A stretch of 64,000 bases of DNA from NCBI RefSeq assembly GCF_037975245.1, contig NC_092578.1, forward strand, positions 19,195,321-19,259,320. Reading direction: 5' to 3'. The position numbers and the translations under genes are program-made. This DNA is from Apostichopus japonicus. Lineage: Eukaryota; Echinodermata; Holothuroidea; Aspidochirotida; Stichopodidae. Below the pieces are notes generated by a model that did no database searches, was not told the DNA's origin, and worked only from the letters and a program-made list of their open reading frames with translations. Shown piece by piece: positions 4,030 through 61,860 of this stretch (position 1 is the stretch's first letter; each line of letters begins with the position of its first letter).

Positions 4030-4421
4030 CAGTGGCGGAGCTAGGGGTATTGGTCAGGGGGGCGAGAATGGTCTGTAGGGGCGCTTTCGACACTATCTAA
4101 GCGGAGCGCCACCACAGGTTGGCGCAGAGCGTACAGAAATGTTTTGAGTAAAGATACTCCCTAGATCTCCGGAAATGACCCTTTCCGGGCCTTGCTAATT
4201 TGCAGATAAACGAAGAATAAATAGGTGTCATCGCCATTTTGTCAGAAAGTTACACCAACAAAATGTGACAAATGTCAATAGGTATTTGAGTGCGCAATAA
4301 AAAAGTCAATAGTCGCGAATAAGTTGAAAGTGGTAAAAAGCTGAAAAGGGCGCCAGCAGTCCTTTTGAGTCCGTCAGGAGGGGCTTCTGCCCCCTCTGAC
4401 TGTATGGACGCTCCGCCACTG
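4030..4421. mobile_element. Non-autonomous hAT-type element, copy A (392 bp)
   Basis: It begins CAGTGGCGGAGC and ends CTCCGCCACTG, so the termini are inverted repeats. It is flanked by a perfect 8-bp duplication, CCCTCCCT, at 4022-4029 and 4422-4429. An 8-bp target duplication and CAGTG ends are hallmarks of the hAT superfamily. No transposase frame is present. A diverged sister copy in the opposite orientation lies at 40220-40621. It carries the shared internal module (TATCTAAGCGGAGCGCCACC...GGTTGGCGC) at about 4093-4134. Confidence 0.9.
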
Positions 4422-8440: not shown

Positions 8441-8709
8441 TTTGATCTCTAGAGTAGGGCAAAATATGTCACCAAAAACAGGAAAATCCAGAACAGTGAA
8501 AAAACTTCCAGCCTCCACCGGGATTCGCACCCGGGCCTCCCGCTTTGTACGCGGACACCCTACCAACTAGGCTATGGACGCTGATTGTATGTCCAGAGGT
8601 TCGAAACCGGTAAGGAAGGTCGTAATTTCACTGTAGGCGTTTGACACCTGTATCGAACAATACTAGTTCTGTTTTTGGTGACATATTTTGCCTTACTCTA
8701 GAGATCAAA
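8441..8709. mobile_element. Terminal-inverted-repeat element enclosing a tRNA-like sequence
   Basis: The 41-bp left arm at 8441-8481 begins TTTGATCTCTAGAGTAGGGC. Its reverse complement, with one mismatch, is at 8669-8709. The interior holds a tRNA-like cloverleaf and a further GGTTCGAAACC motif near 8598. There is no transposase. The arms are long and well matched, so the structure is young or maintained. The superfamily is not clear from the ends. Confidence 0.75.
8511..8581 (-). tRNA. tRNA-like cloverleaf, probably a pseudogene or SINE head (anticodon loop ACA)
   Basis: Read on the - strand, this 71-nt segment folds as a tRNA. The acceptor stem GCGTCCA/TGGAGGC has one G-G mismatch. The D arm has A14 and GG at 18-19. 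The anticodon stem TCCGC/GCGGG carries loop GTACAAA, with T33 and anticodon ACA (cognate to Cys UGU). The T stem CCGGG/CCCGG is perfect. The A box (TAGCCTAGTTGG) and B box (GGTGCGAATCC) are near consensus. Against a working tRNA: the T loop is TGCGAAT instead of TTCGAAT, eukaryotic tRNA-Cys normally has GCA, and the sequence sits inside a repeat. Confidence 0.6.
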
Positions 8710-11539: not shown

Positions 11540-12770
11540 CGTGAGGTAACACTGAGTGCGAACTTGAGAAACAAATTTATCTTCTGCATGATCACTTTTA
11601 CTAACTTATAATGGAAGGCAAAGGGCTTATGTTATACTCTTCACCCAATTGCGGCAATTTTACGCTCAATTTTGAATAAACATAACTAAGAACTGATACG
11701 TTGCGTAATGAATAAACATAACTAATTTGCATATCAATTGTATCATGAGGTAGCACAGTGATAAGTTTGTTTACATGATAATGGATGGTCAATGGTTTGC
11801 CTGACAGATACATTCAGTACTGAATAAATACAGCCCACAACTGATACGCCGAGTGCTGAATAAACATAACTAATTTACATATTAACTACAGAACAAGGTG
11901 AAACAGTGAGAAGAAATCACGTCAGATTAATCAATATTAATCAAGATCAATGGTTCATCCCACTGATAGTTGGGTACTGCATAAACAATACCTGCTATAC
12001 GATATGTACTGATTAAACATATCTCATTTACATATCAATTACAACACTAGGTGACGCAGTGGCTAAGAGGCAAACACATCTTGCTCATGATTGCTTGATG
12101 TTATCTGATGATAGAAGATCAATGGTTGGGTACTGCATAAACAATACCTGATATACGATATGTAGTGAATTAACATATCTCATTAACATATCGACCACAA
12201 CAGTAGGTGACGCAGTAAGAGGCAAACACATTTTACACATGATTGCTTGATGTTATCTGACAATAGAAGATCAATGGTTCAACCCACTGATAGTTGGGTA
12301 CTGCATAAACATACCTGATATACGATACGTACTGAATAAACATATCTCATTTACATATCAATTACAACACTAGGTGACGCAGTGGCTAAGAGGCAAACAC
12401 ATCTTGCTCATGATTGCTTGATGTTATCTGATGATAGAAGATCAATGGTTGGGTACTGCATAAACAATACCTGATATACGATATGTAGTGAATAAACATA
12501 TCTCATTAACATATCAATCACAACAGTAGGTGACGCAGTAAGAGGCAAACACATCTTGCTCATGATTGCTTGATGTTATCTGACAATAGAAGATCAATGG
12601 TTCAACCCACTGATAGTTGGGTACTGCATAAACATACCTGATATACGATATGTACTGAATAAACATATCTCATTTACATATCAATTACAACACTAGGTGA
12701 TGCAGAAAGAGGCAAACACATTTTACACATGAATGCTTAATGTTATCTGATAATTAAGATCAAGCGGATC
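11540..12770. repeat. ~160-bp satellite array with a 323-bp higher-order period
   Basis: The motif GGTGACGCAGT and its variants recurs at 12051, 12207, 12374, 12530 and 12697, with spacings of 156, 167, 156 and 167 bp. This is a two-monomer higher-order unit of 323 bp. More diverged monomers extend left (GGTAACACTGAG near 11545, GGTAGCACAGTG near 11749, GGTGAAACAGTG near 11896). Each monomer also carries TACTGAATAAACATATCTCATT and AAGATCAATGGTT blocks. No coding frame is retained. Confidence 0.9.
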
Positions 12771-16586: not shown

Positions 16587-17021
16587 CTGAAAGCCAAAAA
16601 TATGAAGAAAAACGTCTCCTTACATATTAATCATGATAGCTTTGCAGGTAAGTTATACCAGATTTTGTAATCTGTGCTAATTTACATTTCTTTTAAATTA
16701 CAAAACTGAAATGAAAAAAGAAACCCGCGGATACTTCCTTTCACCAAAAGGGGCATTTATTGAAGTATACATGTAAAAGTGTTTTGCCACGGTTTGTATT
16801 GACGCCCTCAAACAAAGAATACACGAGTTGCTTCCTGTTGGCCATTTTGTCTTGCTGTTTGCCCATATTATCCTAAAGATATAACACTTATCTCTTCTTT
16901 CTTTGGGGGGGGGGGGGTAACAGTATCGTAATCTTTATTTATTTTTCGAGGGGGAAGAGGCCGGGTTGGCTGAGGTGGCCTGCAATGTTTTCTTTTTTAT
17001 GAAGCAAAATTAAAATCTTAC

Positions 17022-17630
17022 CCAACCTCCATTCTCCTCAATCCAGGATTGTACATTATCTTTCTCCATAATCATTGAAGTCCAAGATAACAAACTTTCG
17101 ACCATGTTAGGAAGTTCTCGGTCCACACACATGACAGCCATTTGAGCTGAACAATCGACTAAAGTCACTATTTTCCACCAAGATACATCATCATCTTCAA
17201 ATAGAGTATCAGCTATATAAAGAAATGTTTCCAATAAAGTATGTTTTGAGATATGTAAATTAGTTAATGTGTCAAGTAAATCCAATTCCACAAGGATCGC
17301 TCTAACCATAGCATCTTTCTCTGTACTATACAACGTCGTATGATAAGGGCAAATTTCAGAGCCAACACTACTTGCTGCATGTATATTTAATCCGAGACGA
17401 TCGGGCCTATCCACGCCAAAGTCCGCCAGTTTTAAAACCATATAGGCTTCAATGAAATTCCCGGTGATGTTTTCCGTCATGTTGTCTAGATTGGTTTCTC
17501 CTTGTAACATTGCACACAGTGGTATATTCCTTGGGAACACGTTATCACAATAAAATGGCCGCCTTCTTCTGGATTCGTATGTTGCATACTTCGGCGTGAT
17601 GAGATCGTGGCTGTTCTGTTTTATCCCCAT
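17022..17630 (-). CDS. Divergent Bcl-2 family apoptosis regulator, main coding exon
   Basis: The 203 codons from ATG at 17630 end at GGT TGG|GTAAGA. The open frame that continues VRF-stop is intron read-through. Residues 57-73 (GNFIEAYMVLKLADFGV) resemble helix 1/BH4. Residues 105-126 fill the BH3 place, followed by LHIS as in Bcl-xL (LHIT). Residues 149-165 (VSWWKIVTLVDCSAQMA) match BH1. Residues 166-190 (VMCVDRELPNMVESLLSW...) match the next helices. WIEENGGW (196-203) is a near-perfect BH2. Splicing straight after NGGW is the known intron position of vertebrate BCL2. Oddities: BH1 has WWK where NWGR is usual, GG is replaced by SA, and BH3 lacks the Gly-Asp core. Members of this family control mitochondrial outer-membrane permeability. 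Pro- or anti-death sense cannot be read here. The 5' flank carries a tandem duplication (17661-18080). Confidence 0.85.
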
Positions 17631-17660
17631 GGAAGTTAAATTCTTTAAGTTCCTATTTCG

Positions 17661-18080
17661 TCCTTTGCAATTTGTTAAAGTTGCTCTCTAGATATCTGAG
17701 ATATTTTCGAGCAATTCAATAAGCTGTAGTGTAAAGCAATGTGACTGTATGCCTACAGCGCGAAAGTGACACACTAAAATCCGTATTATGTATCTCTCCG
17801 AAAACACGGTCGTGGCTTGTGAATCACATCTGTAATTTTCCAAGATTGTTAAACCGCAGCGTCCTTTGTAATTTGTAAAAGTTGCTCTCTATAGATATCT
17901 GTGATATTTTCGAGCGATTCCATAAGCTATAACGAAATGTGACAGTAGGACTACAACGCGAAAGGAACACACTAAATCCGTAATATTTATTTTCCAGGAA
18001 GACTTAGTCTAGTAGCCGCTTGTGATGTGACATATGAATCACGTCTGTCTGTAATTTTCCAACATTGTTAAACAGCTGTA
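17661..18080. repeat. ~200-bp tandem duplication in the 5' flank of the Bcl-2 gene
   Basis: The copies at about 17661-17861 and 17862-18080 both run TCCTTTG(C/T)AATTTGT, AAAGTTGCTCTCTA, TATTTTCGAGC, CACACTAAA(A)TCCGTA, CTGTAATTTTCCAA and TTGTTAAAC. They lie immediately upstream of the start codon at 17630 on the - strand. They may therefore double promoter or 5' UTR elements. No coding frame is shared. Confidence 0.85.
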
Positions 18081-23286: not shown

Positions 23287-23730
23287 GCAGTGCTGCCAAG
23301 TCACCCGCTTTGGGCGGGTGTCACCCGCACTTTCGGGTCGTCACCCGCCCACCTGTCCGAATCTCCCGCATTTTCCAAAAAACGCCCACAGTTTTTCCTG
23401 TGAACGTGTATCATTACTAGCGTGAAATTCATTTCATCACACCAAAATGCGAATTATCTCAGAACCGCCAGGATCGGAAATTACTCAAAGCCGATCGTGC
23501 TAAATATGCCCGGCTGAAAGCAACGTTACCTATACGATTGAGACAGTATAGATTCAGCTTAGATGACCCGGGAAGTGATGTTTCCGGCCATCTGAGGGGC
23601 CGTAAGATCCCAAAATTTTCTTGTACGCTTCGCGCCAACCCATGGTGGCGCTCCGCTTAGATGGTGTACGTAAGCAACAGCACCAGACAATTTTCACCCG
23701 CCTAAAAAACATCTGACCTTGGCATCTCTG
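23287..23730. mobile_element. Non-autonomous hAT-like element (444 bp) with the shared module
   Basis: It starts CAGTGCTGCCAAGTC and ends GACCTTGGCATCTCTG, so the termini are imperfect inverted repeats. GAATAG lies directly on both sides (23281-23286 region and 23731-23736). That is shorter than the expected 8 bp, so the boundary may be off by two bases. Repeated TCACCCGC motifs follow the left end. The internal module (TACGCTTCGCGCCAACCCAT, then GGTGGCGCTCCGCTTAGATG) is at about 23565-23665. Confidence 0.6.
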
Positions 23731-25213: not shown

Positions 25214-25408
25214 CTACCAGTGCTTTAAGAGCATGCTATTGGAGTACAGTTTAGAGAGGCATTAGCATTAGGAAATTGTCCCAACTGGCTGGGAAACGGC
25301 AAACGTAGACTTTTGATATCATTATTTAACGAAGCGATCGATCCTATAATGGAGTTAGAAGAGAACTCCATGATCCTATAGAGCAGTGTGGTAGCAAGTA
25401 CTTTGATC

Positions 25409-26226
25409 CATGGGCGGCGATCATGGGGGGCGGGGGTGGGGGGACATGTCCCCCATTATATTAGGTGGGGAATATAGTATCTAATATCCCCCAATATTTG
25501 GTGGCATAGGTTTTTTGTGTGGCTAATAATGCGTGAGATTATTTATCCAAATCATATTTGGCGGTGGCTTAAACTTCATCCAACACATACTGCATGAGGT
25601 AAATGACTCTTCGTGGTCGTTTCTGTGACCTGTGACCAAGTTGTCATTCATGATTATTATCATAATGTCTGTACATCTCTTGTGTATGAGTGTGAGTACG
25701 TACAATCATATATATATGATCCACATCGATATGGGTTCACTGGGTTTCCATTAGGCCTGTTTCCTACAATATTATTAACCGCAGGCGCGCAGCCAAGGTA
25801 GCGGTCGCCCCCTTCACCCCCCCCCCCCCCCCTTGAGCATATTTTTGGTATTTTTTATGATATCGCTAGTAATTTCAAATAAGAAAATGCCTAGATGCAA
25901 CTTACAAGGCCTGGGAAGTGCCATTTCCAGCGATCTGGGAGGCATTTTCGACCGAAATTTTCTTTTACGCTTCGCGCCAACTTATGGTGGCGCTACGCTT
26001 AGATAGTTTGCCTAAAAGATTCGCCCCTCCCTTGGCAAATTCCTCGCTACGCGCCTGTCTTACCGTGTCACAATTGGTTACTAAATATCACCAAAAAACG
26101 TCACAGAGTTTTATACAAAATATCACGAAGTGCGCGAACAATTTTGGGGATGAAAGTTGCTACGCGCCTGCACTCAAGCAAATGTCCCCCCCCCCCCTCA
26201 ATATTTGAAACAAATCGCCGCCCCTG
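25409..26226. mobile_element. Middle hAT-type element of the nest (818 bp)
   Basis: It starts CATGGGCGGCGATCATGGGG and ends AACAAATCGCCGCCCCTG. The flanking duplication CTTTGATC (25401-25408, 26227-26234) is perfect and lies inside the outer element. Long G/C runs sit near both ends. It is itself interrupted by 25782-26057. Confidence 0.85.
25782..26057. mobile_element. Inner element of the nest (276 bp) with the shared module
   Basis: It starts CAGGCGCGCAGCCAAGG and ends CCTCGCTACGCGCCTG. The flanks ATTAACCG and TCTTACCG are only a weak duplication, so the boundaries are less certain. It carries the module TTTACGCTTCGCGCCAACTT, then ATGGTGGCGCTACGCTTAGATAG near 25965-26005. Confidence 0.65.
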
Positions 26227-27644
26227 CTTTGATCCGAGTACTTCCGAAAACTTGAGGTCCCGAGTAGTTAGTATACCATTGTCCGAGTACTGCTTTTAAT
26301 GATCCGAGTACCAGTGTACGAGTGCAACTGTTTAACACCGAGTACAGAGTACAAGAACGTTCTCATCTGAGTACTTTTGATTTAGGGAATACACAAGAAC
26401 CGTTCGCTTATTACTTCTCTTTGATGATCACGGAACAGTTGAATGTTATGTAATTGCTCGGATTTTGTTACTGTTTGGCAACTTTGTGAAAATGTCTCAA
26501 TATCATCAGAAATTTTCTGATATTGGAATGACAACAAATTGAAAGTCCTGAGCAAGCAAATTCCTGTCGTGTACACACGTTTCACACCATTTGTACGTTG
26601 ATTGAAAAAAACAAAAAACAATGATAGTGATTGAAAATATCCCAAACAAGCATTGTATTACATTGTATTAGTTCAAATTATGACTTTTTGTAATGGTTAG
26701 CCTTACGAGCGGATGTAAGGTTAACTGTAATTGTGGTATATAGTACCTCATACTACGTTAGCAACATACACCACTCACGGTGGCATACTCCTATTAGAGC
26801 CTATATATCAGCCCGGATGTTCTCCTATCTCGGGAAAAGTGCCAAAATACAGAAGGAAAACATCTTTTTTGATACGTTATCAATCATGATCTGATTTCTT
26901 GTGGATTGCATCTTTAAGAGCATTAAAGGAAGAACATGTGGTTCAAAAATTGGGTCAATTGAGGCAATTTTAGGCCTCCCAGGAGCAGCGTACGATATTG
27001 TTTAGTATTGAGTGAAGAGGGTTGTTTACAAATGACGAAAATTTCCGGCTCGGATAGCAAAAAATCTGCATGGTTATGTTACGGAAAATTGATGGTGCCA
27101 TGAAAGGCCAACTTGTCAGCTATCCGGTGGATGGGTAGCGTTCAGCTAGTGTGAACTTCTATCAAGACTTAGAGACCACATTACTTTTGTTATTTAGTGT
27201 GTAAGTCAATGGGTCTTTTAATGGGCGCATGCTACCTCACGCATTATTCATCTGCGTACAGCCTATAAGCACGTGGTGATACACAAGCCTACATGTATGA
27301 TATACTGCTGATGTAGGCTATAGACGTACTTTATGGGTATAGTAATGGGTATAGTAATATATAGCGTAATACAATAGCATGCCAAAACGACGAAAAATGA
27401 TTCGATTTCCTGTCTTGAGGTCAGTTTTACATAACATATCTATATTGTGAGTACTCGTCATGAGCGAGTACTAAGTACTTTAATTCGGGTACACGACCGA
27501 GTACTTTCAGCATCTGAGTCAATGACCAATGAATGACGAGTACCAAGTACTTTATCATCCGAGTACTTAGCAGCGAGAGCGATCATTTTCAGAAAGGTAC
27601 CCGAGTACTACTTCGGTACAGAGTACTAGAACACTGCTATAGAG

Positions 27645-39849: not shown

Positions 39850-40938
39850 CAGTGGCGGCGGAACCGGGGGGGGGGGGCTTTGGGGGGCACAGCCCCCCCA
39901 ATGAAAAAGTTGAGGGGGCAAATGCATGATAAGCCCCCCCAATATTTACCAAGGCTCCGATACGTGCATCTGCCCATTTTTCAATGCATACTTGTCGATC
40001 TGTCCGATGCACACGTATACTATATAGGTGTAATAATTTTAGTAATTGCTGGGGGACCCTCGGCCCGTCCCCTGGCTATAGACCCTTTGTCACCTCAACC
40101 GCGTCTTCGCGCCCTGTGAAAAGTGGAAGCAGTGAGTGTGAGTACCGGTAAGCGTAACACAACTTCGTCTTAGGCCAATGGCTTGCCTCATTTCAGCCAG
40201 TTCTCCAACATCCCTTACTTAGTGGCGGAGCGTCCATATGCAGTCAGGGGCGGATGCCCCCCCCCCCCTGACGGACTCAAATGGACTGCTGGCGCCCTTT
40301 TCAGCTTTTCACTACTTTTTACATATTCGCGATTATTGACTATTTTATTGCCCTCTCATATACCTATTGACATTTGTCATATTCTGTTGGTGTAATTTTC
40401 CGACAGAATGGCGACGACACCTATTTATTTTCCGTTTATCTGCAAATTAGCAAGGCCCGGAAAGGGTCATTTCCTGCAATCTAGGGAGTATCTTTACTCA
40501 AAAATTTTCTGTACGCTCCGCGTCAACCTGTGGTGGCGCTCCGCTTAGATAGTGTCGAAAGCGCCCCTACAGACCATTCTTGCCCCCCCCCCCCTGACCA
40601 ATACCCCTAGCTCCGCCACTGCCCTTACTAGACTCAAAAACGTCTTTGCGAGTACACTACGAGTACCGGTAATAGCTACTCTCTTAAAACACCATCGAAT
40701 ATACAAATTACAATGTTTTTACAGACTTTTACGTGCAATCTGAGAAATTACAGGCTTGAGACCATAGGGCTAGGTATTCGCAGCATAAAACACTCGGGAA
40801 GTGCCGTTTCCGGCCATCTGGGGGTTTGAAAAAAACCCAAATTTTCTTGTACGCTCCGCGCCAACCGATGGTGGCGCTCCGCTTAGATAGTCTCCACACA
40901 ATAGCCCCCCCAATAATTTTTCCGTTCCGCCGCGCCTG
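39850..40938. mobile_element. hAT-type element (1089 bp) hosting a nested copy
   Basis: It starts CAGTGGCGGCGGAACCGG and ends CCGTTCCGCCGCGCCTG. The 8-bp duplication TGAAGAAC is perfect (39842-39849, 40939-40946). Without the nested insertion it is about 680 bp. It contains the shared module at about 40784-40893 (CTTGTACGCTCCGCGCCAAC, then CGATGGTGGCGCTCCGCTTAG). There is no transposase. Its right end is only about 160 bp before the start codon of the transporter at 41106. Confidence 0.92.
40220..40621. mobile_element. Non-autonomous hAT-type element, copy B, nested (402 bp)
   Basis: It starts TAGTGGCGGAGC (first base C to T) and ends AGCTCCGCCACTG. The duplication CCCTTACT is perfect (40212-40219, 40622-40629). 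Its interior matches copy A (4030-4421) in reverse orientation along its whole length, including GACATTTGTCA, the CGCGATTATTGACT region and the shared module near 40510-40555. It lies inside the element at 39850-40938 and so inserted later. Confidence 0.92.
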
Positions 40939-41105
40939 TGAAGAACGATAGTGTTTCTGCAAAAAATGCTGGCTGGTGATCGAATCACTGAAGATATAAG
41001 TAAATGATATCCAAGGTATAGTACAGTCACATTGTTCTCTTGAAGGGATAACACGTAATAAATTCTTCTTAAGTTTAGTAATACGTAAAGAACTTGACAA
41101 CAGAA

Positions 41106-42008
41106 ATGGCGGACCGTTTTCATTGCTCCTCTCCAAAAGGAGGGTTATATTCATTCGCACTGGGCGCATTTATTGCATTAAATTTTCTCATCGCAAAAGC
41201 CATGTTAATGAAAGATTTCAACGCCTTTGAACTAATTTTTCTGAGAAGTGTGACTCATTTAGTTGTCCTTGTGACGTTTTCGTCGTGGGAATCAACAATT
41301 TCTTACACCTTGTACGATTTATTCATCTACCTATGTTGTGGGACTATGGGATTGGTATCATGGAGTGTAATGGTTCTGGCCTTTGAAACTCTCGAAGTTG
41401 GTGATGGCACCACGATCGAAATCGGTGTATATGTTATGTTTACGATGTTATTCGGACATTTTTTGCTGTCAGAAAATGTTGATAAATACGACATCGCTAT
41501 TCTGATCGGTGATGTCGTCGGTGTGGCTCTTGTTGGAAAGCCTAGCATGATATTCGGACACAATGACAGCCAAAGACAACTGCATATTGTTGGACTAGCT
41601 TATGTGATAGTGTCTGGATTTTTGTGTGCTACTATTACCATTTTTGTACGGATTGCTTCAAATAGAGGGACTTTGGACATGAAGCTATTTCAAATTTTTC
41701 ACGGGATTGCCGGAATTCCGCTAACGATCTTGGCAGCTCTTTTTTCCAGTCCTTGGAAAGTAACTTATGATCTCAACGATTACTTACTCATGCTAGCGTA
41801 CCAGTTTGCATGTTTGGGACAGACTGCGTGTCAAGCTTTGGCTTTGGAGAATGATGATGCAAAGAACGTGGCAGTTTCATCGACAATTTCGTGTGTCCTG
41901 ACCTATATTGGACAACTGGTTATTTTCAAAGCAACCGTAGACTGGGTCTCTATTTTAGGTTCCGTTTGTATAATAACAATTTTGATCATTCTTCAATTGA
42001 AAAACTAA
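41106..42008 (+). CDS. SLC35G/EamA-family transporter, intronless, copy 1
   Basis: 300 residues from ATG at 41106 (CAGAAATGG, a good Kozak context). The family (drug/metabolite transporter superfamily, EamA repeats; vertebrate SLC35G members) is a set of about ten-helix membrane proteins, many with unknown substrate. Seen here: alternating hydrophobic helices through the whole length; ELIFLRS after helix 2; LEVGDGTTIEIG ending helix 4, the place of SLADAT-type motifs in SLC35G1; DIAILIGDVVGVALVGKPSM closing the first EamA repeat; and FHGIAGIPLTILAALFSSPW and ALALENDDAKNVAVSSTISC in the second. It heads a direct-orientation array with 50139-51053 and a pseudogene at 51565-52475. A nested hAT composite ends 160 bp upstream. 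Substrate and membrane are unknown. Confidence 0.88.
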   Translation: MADRFHCSSPKGGLYSFALGAFIALNFLIAKAMLMKDFNAFELIFLRSVTHLVVLVTFSSWESTISYTLYDLFIYLCCGTMGLVSWSVMVLAFETLEVGDGTTIEIGVYVMFTMLFGHFLLSENVDKYDIAILIGDVVGVALVGKPSMIFGHNDSQRQLHIVGLAYVIVSGFLCATITIFVRIASNRGTLDMKLFQIFHGIAGIPLTILAALFSSPWKVTYDLNDYLLMLAYQFACLGQTACQALALENDDAKNVAVSSTISCVLTYIGQLVIFKATVDWVSILGSVCIITILIILQLKN

Positions 42009-43274: not shown

Positions 43275-43560
43275 CGTGACCGGACAAATACCCCCAGACA
43301 AATACCCCCGGACGATTACCCCCCAGACAATAACCCCCCGGACGATTACCACCCGGACAGATACCCCCCGGACAAATACCATCCCGGACAACTACCCCCC
43401 CAGGACAACTACCACCCGCACAGATACCCCCGGACAATTACCCCCGAGGACAAAACCCCCCCGGACAACTACCCACCCGGACAACTACCCCCTCGGACGA
43501 ATACCCCCTCGGACGAATACCCCCCGGATAAATACCCCCGGACGAATATACCTCTGGGCA
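43275..43560. repeat. 15-bp C-rich minisatellite (CCCCCGGACAAATAC type)
   Basis: About 18 degenerate units of CCCCCGGACAAATAC. Because 15 is a multiple of three, the + strand frame keeps a pentapeptide pattern PPD(K/D/N)Y with no stop, but other frames are open too. No start context, splice sites or signal sequence support a gene. The inverse array is at 49440-49738. Confidence 0.85.
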
Positions 43561-45489: not shown

Positions 45490-46120
45490 CAAGTCTGCAG
45501 TGGCGTAGCCAGCGGGGGGGGGGGGGCAGGAGCCCCCCCAGTTGAAATGCTCGCCCCCCCCACTTGCCCCCCAAATGGAATTATTGACTGAGAAAAAAAA
45601 CTTGAATGCACACTAAATATGTTGCTGGGCCTATGTGCATATTACCATGGTTTTTATGCAATTTTTATTCTTCACCTTTTACCTAATTCTCTATCTGCGA
45701 AATTGGGTGGCCAAAATAAAAATCACATCCATGGCAACATTGCCTCGAGAAAGAATTTGACCCAAGCAGCAGCGCAAAAAACGCCACTGTCTCTGTATTG
45801 TCAAATGTGGAAACGGGTTGGCAATTCAATTAAACGGTCTCCGCGGCACTCACAAGCGGAGGCTACGTTCAGTTTATGTTCACATGGTTATCCCTGATCC
45901 CTGGATTGTGTTCCGAAATGATTCACACGTGAGTGACGTGTATGGCAGAATGAATATCACAGTATTTAGAAACAATTTGCATTTTGACTGAAACTTACAA
46001 CATGTTTTGCTACGCCTACGCGACCAATCGCGATGTGTTTCTTGGGTTAGGTACATTCAACACAGAACAGCCTAGTAGTCTATATACGTTTGTGTTTCCG
46101 TAGTGAGCTCATAGGCCCTA

Positions 46121-46737
46121 GGTGACCAGACGTCCCCGATTTTTGGGGACAGTCCCCGATTACAGTGTGCTGTCCCCGATGAACAAGTGTCCCCGAAAAT
46201 GTCCCCGATTCGTCAAAATGTTCAGGAATTTCGGAAATGTCCCACATTATTAGTAAAATAATTGTAAAAACAAACTTTAGTCAAGTGTGCAGTCGCAGAA
46301 CGGAACTTATAACCAATATTTCAGGTGGGCCAGTGTAAAGTGGAAACACTGTTAAAAATATGCTAGATCGATCTAGCCTAGCACTCTTTCGACCGTATAA
46401 ATGGCAACTACGGCGACACAACGACACTTATAGTGTGAGCATGAGCAAATCACAATCTCTCAAAGAACCACGTAAAGTAAGTGGATTTCATTTAAGAAAA
46501 AGCTACATTTTTGAAAATAAAATTGATTTAAAAAGTGCTTCAAAGTATCACCATTTTACATCTAAGCACCTTAGGCACTTGAAAATTTCCAATTTTCAAG
46601 TGGGGGATTCAATTTTCAAGTGAAAATTTCCAATTTTCAAGGAGGGGCTGTCCCCCAAAGGGGGACAGCCCCTCCCCTTAAATATATCAGTCACGCAATA
46701 AATGTCCCCCGATTTCAGTCACGAAAATATGGTCACC
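46121..46737. mobile_element. Nested element with GGTGACC inverted ends (617 bp)
   Basis: It starts (A)GGTGACCAGACGTCCCCG and ends ATTTCAGTCACGAAAATATGGTCACC(T). Near the left end, GTCCCCGA-type motifs repeat five or more times within 90 bp. Near the right end lies a perfect 16-bp-arm hairpin (46641-46675). The flanks CTA/TTA give at best a short duplication, so the superfamily is left open. Confidence 0.65.
46641..46675. repeat. Perfect 16-bp GC-rich hairpin
   Basis: GGAGGGGCTGTCCCCC, loop AAA, GGGGGACAGCCCCTCC. Confidence 0.9.
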
Positions 46738-47241
46738 TTAACTGTAATAGGGCGCGAAATTCGTCGATAAGTTCGCAGACAGTCATCAGAATAGGCGAAT
46801 TAACCTTCGCCAGACTGTTTGAGTGAGCCCTAGAAAGTGCAAAAGAAGGGCCCGAAGGGGGAATGATAACATCTTTTGTTGATTGAGGGGGGGGGGGGGT
46901 TACACTCCCAGGCAAGTCAGATATCATACTGATCATCTTTGAATACTGACAGAAAGAGCATAGTCTATTCAGATTTTTAAAGAGAATTATCGATGACTTT
47001 TTCAGTGATCTGTTTTATCGTTAATAATACCAGTATGTGGAAATAACATAAAACGTCAGCTAACTAGAGTGACCATCTGTACCCTACATTGCTGACACAA
47101 TACCCGATGTGCCACAGTTTGTCATGCAAACTGTTGGTATGTCTTTTGTACTAGCTTAGTCTGCCCCACCAATCAGACATTTCGCCCCCCCCCCCTTGCC
47201 CCCCCCAGATGGAAAAGTCTGGCTACGCCACTGCAAGTCTG

Positions 47242-49439: not shown

Positions 49440-49738
49440 TGAGGTATCTGTGCCGGTGTATTTGGCGGGTGGAGTTTTCCCGGAGGTAATTGCCTGGGGT
49501 GGGGGGTAATTGTCCGCGGGGGTAAATGTCAAGGGGGTATTTGTCCGTGGGGTAATTGTCTGGGGGGTACTTATCCTAGGGGGTATTTGTCCTCGGGGGT
49601 GTATGTCTGGGGATAGTTGTCCCGGGGGTAGCTATCCTCGGAGGTATTCGTCCTCGGGGGTTTTTGTCCGGGGGGGGGGTGATTGTCAGGGGGGTACTTG
49701 TCCCGGGGGTATTTGTCCGGGGGTAGTTATCCGGCAAC
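49440..49738. repeat. 15-bp G-rich minisatellite, inverse of the array at 43275
   Basis: About 18 degenerate units of GGGGGTATTTGTCCG, the reverse complement of the array 6 kb to the left. The outer flanks also match inversely (GCATATGCGTGACCGGACAA against TATCCGGCAACCACGCATATG). Confidence 0.85.
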
Positions 49739-50138
49739 CACGCATATGTCAGTATGTTTCTGTCATGTAATTTATTTGTAATGCATTCATCTCACAAATA
49801 TTTACTTTCGAACGAGCTTATATAGCTAACCCCTTTCACATTTAAAAGGATGTTTATTCAGTGAGATATAAACGTCTTAATTGATTAATAAGAGAAATCA
49901 TTTGCACAGTAAAGGAGTTGGTAATTTTCTCTGTCATACTTCTATACCCTGCATGCTCAGTGTATAAACTAATTTCAAAGCTATCGACGTTGATTGGGTT
50001 GAGCATGTTGACAATGCAGTTGCCTCTTTATTAATATAGTACAGACAGCCGTCTAATGAGGGTATACCCTTTCATTTACCAGCTACTATTTACGAGTTCT
50101 TTCTCTCATCAGCATAACTCATTCTAAAATATACAATC

Positions 50139-51053
50139 ATGTGTCCGTTTCATCTCTCTTCAATCAAGCCATTTGCATATTCGTTTATGCTTGGTTTATC
50201 TGTTGCGTTAAATTTGATCATTGGAAAAGCAATGATATTGCAGGGTTATAACCCATACGAATTGTCGTTTTTGAGAAGTATCATCCACTTAGCTATAATC
50301 GTTAAATTTTATTCATGGATATGTGCCGCCAATTATACATGGTACGACTTGTTACTATACGTTTCTGCTTCATTTACGGGCGTGGGATCGTGGATTGCGA
50401 TTTTTTCTTCTTTCCGTTACCTTGAAGTTGGCGACGGTACGACGCTGGAAATTGGTGCAACTCTTGTATTTACGGTGCTGATTGGATCTCGTTTCCTTTC
50501 GGAAGACGTCGATAAATACGACATCGCAATTCTTATCGGTGACGTAATTGGTGTGGTCCTTGTGGGTAAGCCTAGTATGGTATTTGGGAATACTGTTAAC
50601 CGCAGCCTACAAGGACACACCCTTGGTGTTATCATTGCGATAGCTTCTGGTTCCCTTTGCGCTGCTAATTTTACGTTGATCAAGGTGATTGTTAAAAGAG
50701 AAGTTTTGAACAAAGAGCTATTTCTAATTTTTCATGGAATTGTCGGGATACCGGTAACAGTCCTTGCTGGTCTATTTTCCGATCCTTGGAAAGTATCCTT
50801 CGATTTCAACGATTGCTTACAGATAATAGCTTACCTAGCTGTATGTTTGGGACAGACTACGTTTCAAGCTTTGGCTTTGGAGGCAGACGATGCCAAGAAC
50901 GTGATAGTTTCAGTCACCATTTCTTGTGTCCTGGCCTATCTTGGACAACTGACAATTTTCAAGGCTCCTGTCGACTGGGTCGGTATTTTGGGTTCCGTTT
51001 GCGTCGTAACAGTCGTCGTTCTTCTTCAATTGAGACAAAATTTGAGGGATTAG
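50139..51053 (+). CDS. SLC35G/EamA-family transporter, intronless, copy 2
   Basis: 304 residues from ATG at 50139. It is collinear with copy 1 over its whole length, with long identical blocks (YLEVGDGTT, VDKYDIAILIGDV, VLVGKPSM, FHGIVGIP, PWKV, ALALEADDAKNV, TISCVLAYLGQL, VDWVGILGSVC). It is a predicted ten-helix EamA-type membrane protein with two internal repeats. It ends with a short basic/acidic tail (RQNLRD). The start follows an upstream AT-rich leader. Copies 1 and 2 are clearly diverged yet keep the same conserved blocks, which suggests both are under constraint. The decayed third copy starts only about 510 bp downstream in the same orientation. Substrate unknown. Confidence 0.9.
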   Translation: MCPFHLSSIKPFAYSFMLGLSVALNLIIGKAMILQGYNPYELSFLRSIIHLAIIVKFYSWICAANYTWYDLLLYVSASFTGVGSWIAIFSSFRYLEVGDGTTLEIGATLVFTVLIGSRFLSEDVDKYDIAILIGDVIGVVLVGKPSMVFGNTVNRSLQGHTLGVIIAIASGSLCAANFTLIKVIVKREVLNKELFLIFHGIVGIPVTVLAGLFSDPWKVSFDFNDCLQIIAYLAVCLGQTTFQALALEADDAKNVIVSVTISCVLAYLGQLTIFKAPVDWVGILGSVCVVTVVVLLQLRQNLRD

Positions 51054-51564: not shown

Positions 51565-52475
51565 ATGGCTGGCCGTACTCTCCTCTTTGAAGAGAGGGAC
51601 ATACTCACTTGCATATGGCGTATGTATTCCTATCAATTTTGTAATCGCAAAACAACTGACAATGAACGATTTTAGTCCATTTGAACTAATATTTATGAGA
51701 AGTTTTATCTGTGTTTTGTTCTAGCATTTTCTTCTTGGGAATATATATACTGTCAATTACAAACGCTATGATATGTTTTAATATCTTTCATGTGGATTCG
51801 TGGGATTGGTGTATTATGGATTCTTATGGTTTTCTCTGTGGGTATAATCTTGAAGTAGGCGACAGTACAACGTTAGCCTGTTGGCTCATCGCTTGTATTT
51901 ACGATGCTCTTCGGACATTTCTTCCTTACAGAAGAAATCGATAAAGTCGATATCGCCATTCTCATCGGTGACGTAGCTGGTGTGATTCTAGTTTGTAAAC
52001 CAAGTATGTTATGGACAAAATGTTCATCATCTGCAATCGCAGCTTCTTGGAGCAGTTGTAAAGATCGCTTCTGGATTACTTGACGGTGTTTATTCCATTT
52101 TTGTTAGAAAAATTGCAAAAAAAGGGGAAATTTGAACGTGAAGTTGTTTCAAGCTTTCATGGAATTGTTGGAATTCCTATGACAATCGTAGCTGCTTTAT
52201 TTTCCGATCCTTGGAAAGTCAAATTTTACAATAACTATGTTTTGTCGATAATAGCTTATCAATGTGCATGTTTAGCACAGGTTGCGTTTCAAGCTTTGGC
52301 TTTAGAGGTAGACGATGCCAAAAATGTCGCATTTTCATCGAGTATTTCTTGTGTTGTGGCCTTTATCGGACAAGTGACAATTTTCAAGGCAACAGTGGAT
52401 TGGCTCGCCGTTTTTGGCTCTATTATCATGGTGGCAGCCGTGTTTCTCCTTCAACTGAGACAGGCTTTGGAGTGA
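51565..52475 (+). pseudogene. SLC35G/EamA transporter pseudogene, copy 3
   Basis: An ATGGC(T)GGCCGT at 51565 is homologous to the start of copy 1. Homology then continues in changing frames: GTYSLAYGVCIPINFVIAK and FSPFELIFMRS; FSSWE after a frameshift near 51719; YDMF-stop-YLSCG; LEVGDSTT near 51850; a frameshift near 51890 to LVFTMLFGHF and DIAILIGDVAGVILVCKPSM; a TGA near 52081; then an intact C-terminal part (52122-52475) with SSFHGIVGIPMTIVAALFSD and LALEVDDAKNVAFSSSISC. At least three frameshifts and several stops abolish a full product. The family Gly in VGKPSM is Cys here. An expressed C-terminal fragment is conceivable but unlikely. Confidence 0.9.
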
Positions 52476-53645: not shown

Positions 53646-55281
53646 CAGGCTCGTAGCCAGGAATTTGCCAAGGGAGGGGCGAAAATGTAGGCAAACTATC
53701 AGAGCGGTAGATACGGCATTGCAAACTATCTAAGCGTAACGCCACTATGAGTTGGCGCCAGTGGCGTCACCAGACTTTTCAGTCTCGGGGGGCACAGGGG
53801 GGGCACCAGCATTTGATGGGGGGCACTTAGGTGGATACGGATCGCTGTCCTGGGGGAGGGGGCTAAATTCGATCTGAAGATATCTCCGGAAATTGCTATT
53901 TTTGAGGTAATGATTTTAACAACGCGCAGAATTTTGCAGAGGATATGAACCACATGCTGTCGATATTATGCCTAACCCTATCAATAGAACCTACATTTGT
54001 TGAAGTAATGTGTGCATGACCCCCGACTCCTTTCTTGTCCTTCTCGTTTTCTCCCATTATCTATTAAGATGTAACAGGTTCCAGCATCGTTATTGGCTCC
54101 TATCAGGGATCTCACCATGCAATCCAAAGTTGGATCACACATCGAGTATGGCTCAGTATGCAGGTGTGAACATTTGCCATTTGTTCCTACAAGCATCTGA
54201 CCTCAAATGACCTCTGCACCCCTACAAAACAGGGTTAATATATGGGTCCACAAATATAGGCAAGTATGGTGCCTGCGGACCCTCACATTCTCACATTTCG
54301 TCAGCTCCTAACCTGTCAACCTCAGACCAAGGCAACATACTGCAGTACCCTCCCTTCTCACAGCAGGTCCGGATTTTCGGCATTTCACAGGCATCCAATT
54401 CACGAGAGGTAAAAGACACACACAGACAGCAGACAAACACTCTCACCCATATGACAAATGCACACAAAGGCCCACACAAAGGCCCTCAAGGTTAGGGTTC
54501 ACAGCAACGATATTACTCATCGGTCCAGAAAAAATAAAGCGCGTTCTTTCATATTCTGAGGTCAGAATCATGAGAAAGGTCCAGAAATAGTGCTCTCTGG
54601 AGAGTAGGGGTGGCCTACTTTTCAGGAATTTGATTGGAATGCACCTAGTGATTTTCTGAATATTCGTCCTACTTCCTAGGAAATAAAAACACGGCTGCAG
54701 CACAGCCAGAACAGGGAAATTCATTGTTTTGAACGATGAGTCATGTAGCTCGCGAAGCGGACGTGTATAGCCGCTGGTATGGCGTGAGCACTGACACATT
54801 CAATGTAAATATCGACACCTGTTGTGATGGCGCGGGTTACGACTTCGATACCCGACGGTCAAGGATAAACTTTTTCATTTTTTCGCAGCTCATTTGAAGA
54901 AAATACGAATTACTGTGCTTCTTTGTCCTTATGAAAAACCAACTCAGATGATGGGAGTTGAATATAACAAACTATATATATTTTTTTTACTAACCCAAAT
55001 CTCAGATGGGGGGTCACTCGGGGGGGACTAGGTTTTCCAGGGGGCACGTGCCCCCCTGCCCCCCCTTGGCGACGCCACTGGTTGGCGCGAAGCGTACAAG
55101 AAAATTTTGGCTGAAAATGCCTCCCAGATCGCTGGAAATGGCACTTCCCAGGCCTTGTAAGTTGCATCTTAGCATTTTCTCTTTTGAAATTACTAGCGAT
55201 ATCATAAAAATATTAAAACAAAAATTTAAAAAATATGCTCAAGGGGGGCTGCCCCCTTCGCCCCCCTTGGCTACGCGCCTG
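53646..55281. mobile_element. hAT-like element split by a nested insertion (1636 bp overall)
   Basis: It starts CAGGCTCGTAGCCAGG and ends CCTTGGCTACGCGCCTG. The flanks CCCCCCGC and CCCCCCAC match 7 of 8. Its two halves (53646-53758, 55089-55281) join to rebuild the shared module: ACTATCTAAGCGTAACGCCA then GTTGGCGCGAAGCGTACAAG. The right end lies about 170 bp before the CCDC89 start codon. Confidence 0.8.
53759..55080. mobile_element. Nested hAT-type element (1322 bp)
   Basis: It starts CAGTGGCGTCACCAGAC and ends TTGGCGACGCCACTG. The duplication GTTGGCGC (53751-53758, 55081-55088) is perfect and lies within the shared module of the host element. The interior has no transposase. It includes a dispersed CATCTGACCTCAAATGACCT motif near 54193. 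Confidence 0.92.
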
Positions 55282-61001: not shown

Positions 61002-61860
61002 GGGGCATTCTATTTTACATATGTCATATGTGTGCTTTGAGAACTATGTAATGCATGGTGTATATTTAAATGTTTGTATCATGTTGTATGTCATGGTACA
61101 TGGCTGATATTATGTCATGGTACACTTAGAGATGTAACATGTGCAAGTTATTTCATGTATGGTGCAACATATAGGGCATTCTATTTTACATATGTAATAT
61201 GTGTGCTTTGAGAAGTATGTTATGTATGGGTGCATATTTAAATGCTTGTATCATGTTTATGTCATGGTACACTTAGAGATGTAACATGTGCAAGTTATTT
61301 CATGTATGGTGCAACATATAGGGCATTCTATTTTACATATGTAACATGTGTGCTTTGAGAAGTATGTTATGTATGGGTGCATATTTAAATGCTTGTATCA
61401 TGTTTATGTCATGGTACACTTAGAGATGTAACATGTGCAAGTTATTTCATGTATGGTGCAACATATAGGGCATTCTATTTTACATATGTAACATGTGTGC
61501 TTTGAGAAGTATGTTATGTATGGGTGCATATTTAAATGCTTGTATCATGTTTATGTCATGGTACACTTAGAGATGTAACATGTGCAAGTTATTTCATGTA
61601 TGGTGCAACATATAGGGCATTCTATTTTACATATGTAATATGTGTGCTTTGAAAACTGTGTTATATGGGTGCATATTTAAATGTTTGTATGTCATGGTAC
61701 ATGGCTGATATAGCATGTGCAAGTTATTTCATGTATGGTGCAACATATGTGTTATTCTATAGTACATATTAATATGTGTGCTTTGAGAACTATGTTATGT
61801 ATGGTGTATATTTAAATGTGTCTACCATGTTGTATGTAATGGTACATGGCTGATGCAACA
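61002..61860. repeat. 147-bp tandem repeat, about five to six copies
   Basis: GGGCATTCTATTTTACATATG starts at 61002, 61174, 61321, 61468 and 61615. The last four are exactly 147 bp apart, with weaker units at each edge. Units share TGTGTGCTTTGAGAA(G/C), GCATATTTAAATG, TCATGGTACACTTAGAGATG and GCAAGTTATTTCATGTATGG. The central copies are nearly identical, so expansion was recent. Confidence 0.92.

Follow-up and report, generated by a model that had tools for sequence, protein, structure and literature searches.

How does one and the same segment come to lie beneath the tips of different transposon families, and what keeps it there? DNA transposons are assigned to families by their terminal repeats, and conservation is expected to be strongest there. 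The window (the whole stretch of 64,000 nucleotides of Apostichopus japonicus DNA analysed here) possesses a module of about 100 bp in six copies, distributed over four hAT-like families.

Module copies and host elements

A profile built from the six copies recovers them from the window with nhmmer E-values of 3e-41 to 3e-31, and the second part of the split copy F with 2e-10. It yields no further significant match in the window, the only other rows having E-values of 7 and 8, and a covariance model run on the window returns the same module copies and nothing else. All six places at which the initial annotation had listed a block of about 110 bp hold the module in these searches, including its hairpin with flanking direct GCTCCGC-like repeats. 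The copies and the elements around them are:

4090..4189, reverse strand: module copy A (profile and covariance model)
4030..4421, reverse strand: host element A (A/D family), tips CAGTGGCGGAGC, target site duplication AGGGAGGG 8/8
23565..23665, forward strand: module copy B (profile and covariance model)
23288..23730, forward strand: host element B, tips CAGTGCTGCCAAG / CTTGGCATCTCTG, only a 6-bp repeat, GAATAG
25909..26008, forward strand: module copy C (profile and covariance model)
25782..26057, forward strand: host element C (C/F family), tips CAGGCGCGCAGCC / GCTACGCGCCTG, decayed duplication 5/8; the inner of two candidate right boundaries is used
25409..26226, forward strand: outer hAT element K, enclosing C, tips CATGGGCGGCGAT / ATCGCCGCCCCTG, duplication CTTTGATC 8/8
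40455..40554, forward strand: module copy D (profile and covariance model)
40220..40621, forward strand: host element D (A/D family), nested in E, duplication CCCTTACT 8/8
40792..40892, forward strand: module copy E (profile and covariance model)
39850..40938, forward strand: composite element E, containing D, tips CAGTGGCGGCGGAAC / GTTCCGCCGCGCCTG, duplication TGAAGAAC 8/8
55081..55160, reverse strand: module copy F, first part (profile)
53715..53758, reverse strand: module copy F, second part (profile)
53646..55281, reverse strand: host element F (C/F family), tips CAGGCGCGTAGCC, duplication 7/8
53759..55080, reverse strand: module-free hAT element G, in the centre of module F, duplication GCGCCAAC 8/8
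45498-47233: hAT-like element H, 1.7 kb, tips CAGTGGCGTAGCCA 14/14, duplication CAAGTCTG 8/8

Module F, correctly described as lying in two pieces, is split because G is inserted in its centre. The profile search finds no module in G or H.

In all-against-all blastn, A is collinear with D, at 89% along the element, and C with F. For the other pairs the module aligns with 75-83% over 93-126 bp, or only its best 52-64 bp align, with 88-91%, and the A-B match extends about 36 bp beyond the module. The six elements are therefore not collinear copies of a single family; the hosts with distinct termini that had been proposed form four families barely aligning outside the module. One hAT layout underlies the tips of several families, which are variants of it, and some right flanks are weakly similar between families (6/15 pairs with p<0.05).

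The window also contains features typical of animal DNA: of four ORFs scanned, one carries a Bcl-2 domain (17010-17687, reverse strand, E 3.9e-17) and two carry EamA transporter domains. The latter are the first two of three similar forward-strand ORFs (41082-42008, 50118-51053 and 52062-52475), the third of which resembles a partial copy of the EamA-type ORFs. Two 15-16-bp minisatellites (43280-43548 and 49500-49734) share the motif CCGGACAAATACCCC in opposite orientation and lie near two EamA-type genes. A tRNA-like feature at about 8509-8582 (reverse strand) is called Cys with the unusual anticodon ACA and is perhaps a pseudogene. Long-period tandem repeats are located at 11943-12763 (167/323 bp) and 61110-61846 (147 bp).

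Position within the elements and abundance in the genome

Further copies were sought in the assembly to which the window belongs (671.6 Mb, 35 contigs). The last 19 bases at the 3' end of the module are found 12,219 times in the genome and their reversal 0 times; for the spaced pattern GATAGT-N20-50-CGCGCCTG there are 3,412 occurrences, against 2 for its control. The 40 scored matches among 1,531 first-look candidates for a C-type module are 94-100% identical to the query, those for an E-type module (40 of 1,163 candidates) 98-100% and those for the left end of E (40 of 1,581 candidates) 95-100%, and the window's own copy is present in each of the three match lists. Twenty 10-kb stretches at round coordinates on 12 contigs, 200 kb in all, contain 6 modules; extrapolated from these to the 672 Mb, the genome holds roughly 20,000 copies, with a wide error.

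Element ends were accepted under a strict definition, i.e. a perfect 8-bp duplication and a tip match of at least 10/14, which passes at 2/400 arbitrary places; counts are taken from this search, as a looser one passed at 14/150 arbitrary places. Strict ends, and with them the 8-bp target site duplication expected of hAT elements, are found for 26 of 80 module hits among the stretches read, B having 6 bp only. The 26 rows represent about 20 separate insertions, six rows being one insertion of D and two being one of N. The remaining 54 of 80 hits include captured modules and modules near the edges of stretches. Seven tip kinds occur among the strict elements: CAGGCGCG-type, CAGTGGCGGAGC, CAGTGGCGGCGG, CAGGCCCGTCGC, CATGGGCGGCGAT, CATGGGCGCAGAT and CATGGGCGTCAAC, with family shares biased because most stretches were obtained with the C-type query. 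A further right end, GGATACGCGCCTG, labelled T, is present among the spaced-pattern matches listed.

The module stops 41-79 bp short of the right tip in every one of the 26 strict elements. For the six window elements the corresponding distance, counted from its last base, is about 47-79 bp, and that on the left varies from about 114 to more than 500 bp. The module is thus subterminal and not, as initially described, a central part of its hosts.

This constant place (26/26) argues against capture of the module from elsewhere, for instance from the conserved domain of a SINE or from a host RNA gene. A precedent for capture exists in the SINE V domain of MER6 (PMC6887750), likewise a conserved domain on a derivative of a DNA transposon; MER6, however, is a Mariner-type element with a SINE domain, whereas the module here keeps a single position close to the right tip in many hAT families. 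The Rfam 15 scan of the window at the gathering threshold has a tRNA at 8510-8581 as its sole match and none to the module, and with E-values up to 10 copies B, C, D and E give matches only far below threshold. We regard capture as most improbable.

Members with a transposase

The hAT dimerisation domain gives 150 scored places out of 633 candidates in the genome. Twelve of these, mostly with long ORFs or several copies, were chosen and 1.3 kb downstream was read. A sense-strand module is located downstream of the transposase at three (L057, L059 and L066, the last two being copies of one family), and eight possess no module within the 1.3 kb read. An antisense module at L064:813-916, at most 1.3 kb from a hAT transposase, is perhaps a separate insertion.

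L057 is the end of a 5,521-bp element (C17:7007863-7013383) with the tips of E and the duplication AGGCTGTA 8/8. Downstream of the transposase and in the same orientation, the module of this element lies 47 bp from the right tip. The 796-aa ORF matches DUF4371 (E 4.6e-19) and the hAT dimerisation domain (E 1.2e-4), 752 aa having been scanned. A second copy of this 5.5-kb element, read in its right part only, has the same 3' part and a different right flank. L066 is the end of a 2,342-bp element with a 308-aa hAT ORF, the duplication GTATAAAC 8/8 and, on the sense strand downstream of the ORF, a module 58 bp from the tip; a 276-aa piece of this second family matches the dimerisation domain only. 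Full-length relatives with the hAT dimerisation domain are thus present for two families.

The 1.1-kb E element matches its 5.5-kb relative at the left end (89%) and at the right end (93.5%) and leaves the middle unmatched, as expected of a deletion derivative, and at least this element is, to judge from the alignment, very probably a deletion derivative of the transposase-bearing relative. The module itself has very probably been inherited, as a right-subterminal part common to a group of hAT transposons. Inheritance within such a group would explain its place, strand, number and shared sequence.

Nested and composite elements

Element D occupies the same site in 7/7 copies of E (five fetched, the window copy and L036), and its duplication inside E copies is 8/8 in six of them and 7/8 in one (L051). 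The duplications of E are 8/8 at six different sites in the 6/6 copies readable at both ends, and the transposase-bearing relative of E lacks D. As D has the same site in every E copy and E itself lies at different sites, D was inserted a single time, and the composite with its two modules moved afterwards. D, counted as a separate host in the initial annotation, is therefore a fixed part of the E family and no independent insertion; C lies within K.

Nine K copies have both tips paired, with duplications of 8/8 in seven, 7/8 in one and 1/8 in one (L016). In six of the nine the C-type module is accompanied by a second one, 58-61 bp inside the right tip; three, namely L019, L023 and the window copy, have no module of their own near the right tip. 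K copies contain a C-type segment without the left tip of C, and N lies within two K copies with the same duplication, AGACGGAC. Among two T copies with known right end, one holds an A/D element (CCGCCGCG 8/8) and the other a C-type piece. Nesting and the transposition of composites give modules second sets of ends.

One module under seven tip kinds, the C-type segment lacking C's left tip, and the reality of nesting and composite movement are also what would be seen if recombination had exchanged ends between families and brought an old module under new tips. However, two families own transposase-bearing members with the module in place, and the nested pieces found stay at their own place in the host and do not replace its right end. 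Such an exchange, one of two suggestions in the initial annotation, is unneeded for these two families and may apply to others; as an explanation of the module we consider it quite improbable.

Two further observations concern nesting. A larger hAT-like element may surround K at 25384-27636, with CAGTGTGGTAGC tips (10/14) and the duplication CTATAGAG 8/8, and it may be due to chance, since the same scan gave 0-2 such elements per shuffled window. L012, L017 and L072 each contain at least two diverged modules close together, which suggests older nested copies.

Conservation within and between families

Between families, change is concentrated in the inner hairpin, with 8-11 of 17-18 sites changed against 7-18 of 81 elsewhere in the module; within- versus between-family change in the hairpin gives a Fisher p of 0.11. 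Within the A/D family, A and D differ at 7/100 sites in the module, 28/230 on the left and 1/62 in the right flank. C and F differ at 7/100 sites in the module, 40/126 on the left (partly misaligned) and 7/50 on the right, and the E element differs from its transposase-bearing relative at 4/101 sites in the module and 20/230 beside it. The module is thus better kept than the tips between families and not clearly better kept than its flanks within them. The within-family figures indicate no clear constraint, which would be expected if most changes postdate insertion and lends no help to a functional reading; conservation across tip kinds, by comparison, suggests a function.

A functionless relic, the module being no more than the slowest-changing portion of an old right end once common to the families, would agree with the lack of clear excess conservation within families and with the weak similarity of right flanks noted above. 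Against it, the tips have changed more than the module although they are functional, and change between families is concentrated in one segment. We therefore think a neutral relic unlikely.

Secondary structure

For the six copies, the RNAalifold consensus energy is reached by 2/500 column shuffles on the module strand (z -4.07) and by 6/500 on the opposite strand (z -2.58). Single copies have folding z-scores of -1.1 to -2.6 on the module strand and +0.4 to -2.5 on the opposite strand, and a test of inner-hairpin stem length gives p 0.008 to 0.99 for the window copies. Twelve lineages were assembled from 11 of 12 clusters (57 modules of 67 hits), with the interrupted F dropped and a second E-type added. 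Their consensus energy has z -4.06 on the module strand (0/500 shuffles) and -3.08 on the opposite strand (5/500). The six-copy structure without its inner hairpin is paired in 94.6% of 276 cells of these lineages, a value that 1/500 shuffles attains, with three pairs changed on both sides (14/500 shuffles) and 38 G-U against 6 A-C helix cells. RNAalifold on the twelve lineages retains only the central GCGCCAACC hairpin and pairs the 5' half differently. Over 16 lineages the inner segment folds better than its shuffles (Fisher p 1.1e-4; right control 0.29, left control 0.999), the exceptions being the transposase-bearing U, with no inner hairpin (p 1.0), and the weak R and K. All these p-values are optimistic, since the lineages are related. 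The statistics favour, with exceptions, a conserved predicted fold in which the central hairpin is constant and the inner hairpin varies yet tends to stay self-complementary.

Such a fold may act as RNA, i.e. as a structured 3' element of the transposase transcript serving stability, export, processing or translation, which derivatives would merely inherit. The sense-strand position downstream of the ORF in both transposase-bearing families points in this direction, as do the rarer attainment of the consensus energy by shuffles on the module strand, the excess of G-U over A-C cells and the folding of the inner segment. On the other hand, the structure was initially chosen with G-U permitted on the module strand, the twelve-lineage RNAalifold keeps the central hairpin alone, and U, R and K depart from the pattern; relatedness inflates the significance, no Rfam family is matched at threshold, and a C-G to G-C change in lineage N also fits two half-sites of a DNA inverted repeat. 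An RNA role is, in our estimate, rather doubtful, and it is the main rival of the mobilisation role set out below.

A coding role was considered as well, as copy B reads GCCACCATGGG on the reverse strand. The ATG is missing from A, C, D and E, and families differ by one base in the length of the inner hairpin; the coding reading was rejected by eye.

Comparison with known systems

The closest precedent are the CMITEs of the coral Acropora, small elements with different terminal repeats and an internal region better kept than these repeats, for which the authors propose a role in transposition (PMC2872659). The module likewise is better kept between families than the terminal repeats. CMITEs, however, are piggyBac-type elements of about 100 bp with TTAA duplications and a 75-bp central region, to which no similarity was reported in the related autonomous element (PMC2872659). 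The elements described here are hAT, with 8-bp duplications of other sequence and no TTAA or piggyBac tips, and their module is subterminal on one side and present in transposase-bearing elements as well. The published 60-bp CMITE consensus (PMC2872659) was compared with the module by eye only.

Among hAT transposons, Hermes requires both of its ends over about 220 bp; when the left end is scrambled beyond 50 bp, little or no mobility is left even though the mapped binding motifs there are dispensable (PMC10368747). A further internal feature is needed in cells (PMC10368747). Ends needed for movement reach 100-220 bp inward in Hermes, Tol2, Tag1 and Ac (as cited in PMC10368747). Binding to hAT ends is asymmetric, and two BED domains bind a quasi-palindrome close to one tip (PMC10368747). 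For Hermes, short repeats of one element are described, whereas a long module is common to many families here; moreover, the Hermes scrambling concerned the left end, and the module lies in the end downstream of the transposase. The 796-aa ORF of the E family resembles, by domain content, the Tip group of hAT, e.g. BuT2, which combines DUF4371 with the hAT dimerisation domain, 8-bp duplications and MITE-like derivatives; a shared module is not mentioned in the available part of its description (PMC3942097).

Exact module patterns have 0 matches in bacterial, archaeal and viral contig collections. Three shorter patterns hit 10 viral contigs, with a best profile E-value of 0.0056 and little similarity beyond the pattern, and were taken as chance. 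A literature text search with the module letters returns 0 papers, and none of the titles retrieved concerns a module common to hAT families.

Proposed origin and role of the module

The explanation that we prefer, and consider on balance probable, is that the module is an inherited right-subterminal hAT segment, retained because it is required for mobilising the right end. It would be the subterminal segment downstream of the transposase in one hAT group, passed on to transposase-less derivatives, and would most likely be where the transposase or a host factor docks. Tips would change with each transposase while the module stays, and nested insertion followed by transposition of the composite would supply modules with second sets of ends. 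The published requirements of hAT ends make a mobilisation role the likeliest one. That the core is needed for mobility had been the other suggestion in the initial annotation; it fits the fixed distance to the right tip (26/26), the transposase-bearing carriers and the seven tip kinds, and a role in mobility is what we infer from these sequences. The module-free elements G and H and the 8/12 transposase 3' regions with no module in the 1.3 kb read imply that hAT mobility in general does not need the module.

A broader version, which we hold to be a possibility of rather low probability, is a family-independent mobilisation signal: folded DNA or RNA near the right end that is read by diverged transposases or by one host factor. 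If so, tips could change freely, elements would be cross-mobilised and two-module composites would spread well, and the module would be a candidate for the internal end feature of the kind found in Hermes.

The module, then, is a subterminal segment better kept than the tips across seven tip kinds and thousands of copies, transposase-bearing elements included. It may help to link small families with their transposases, and as a defined stretch of 100 bp it lets one ask what hAT ends require besides the terminal repeat, a question that, on the published account, is open for Hermes (PMC10368747).
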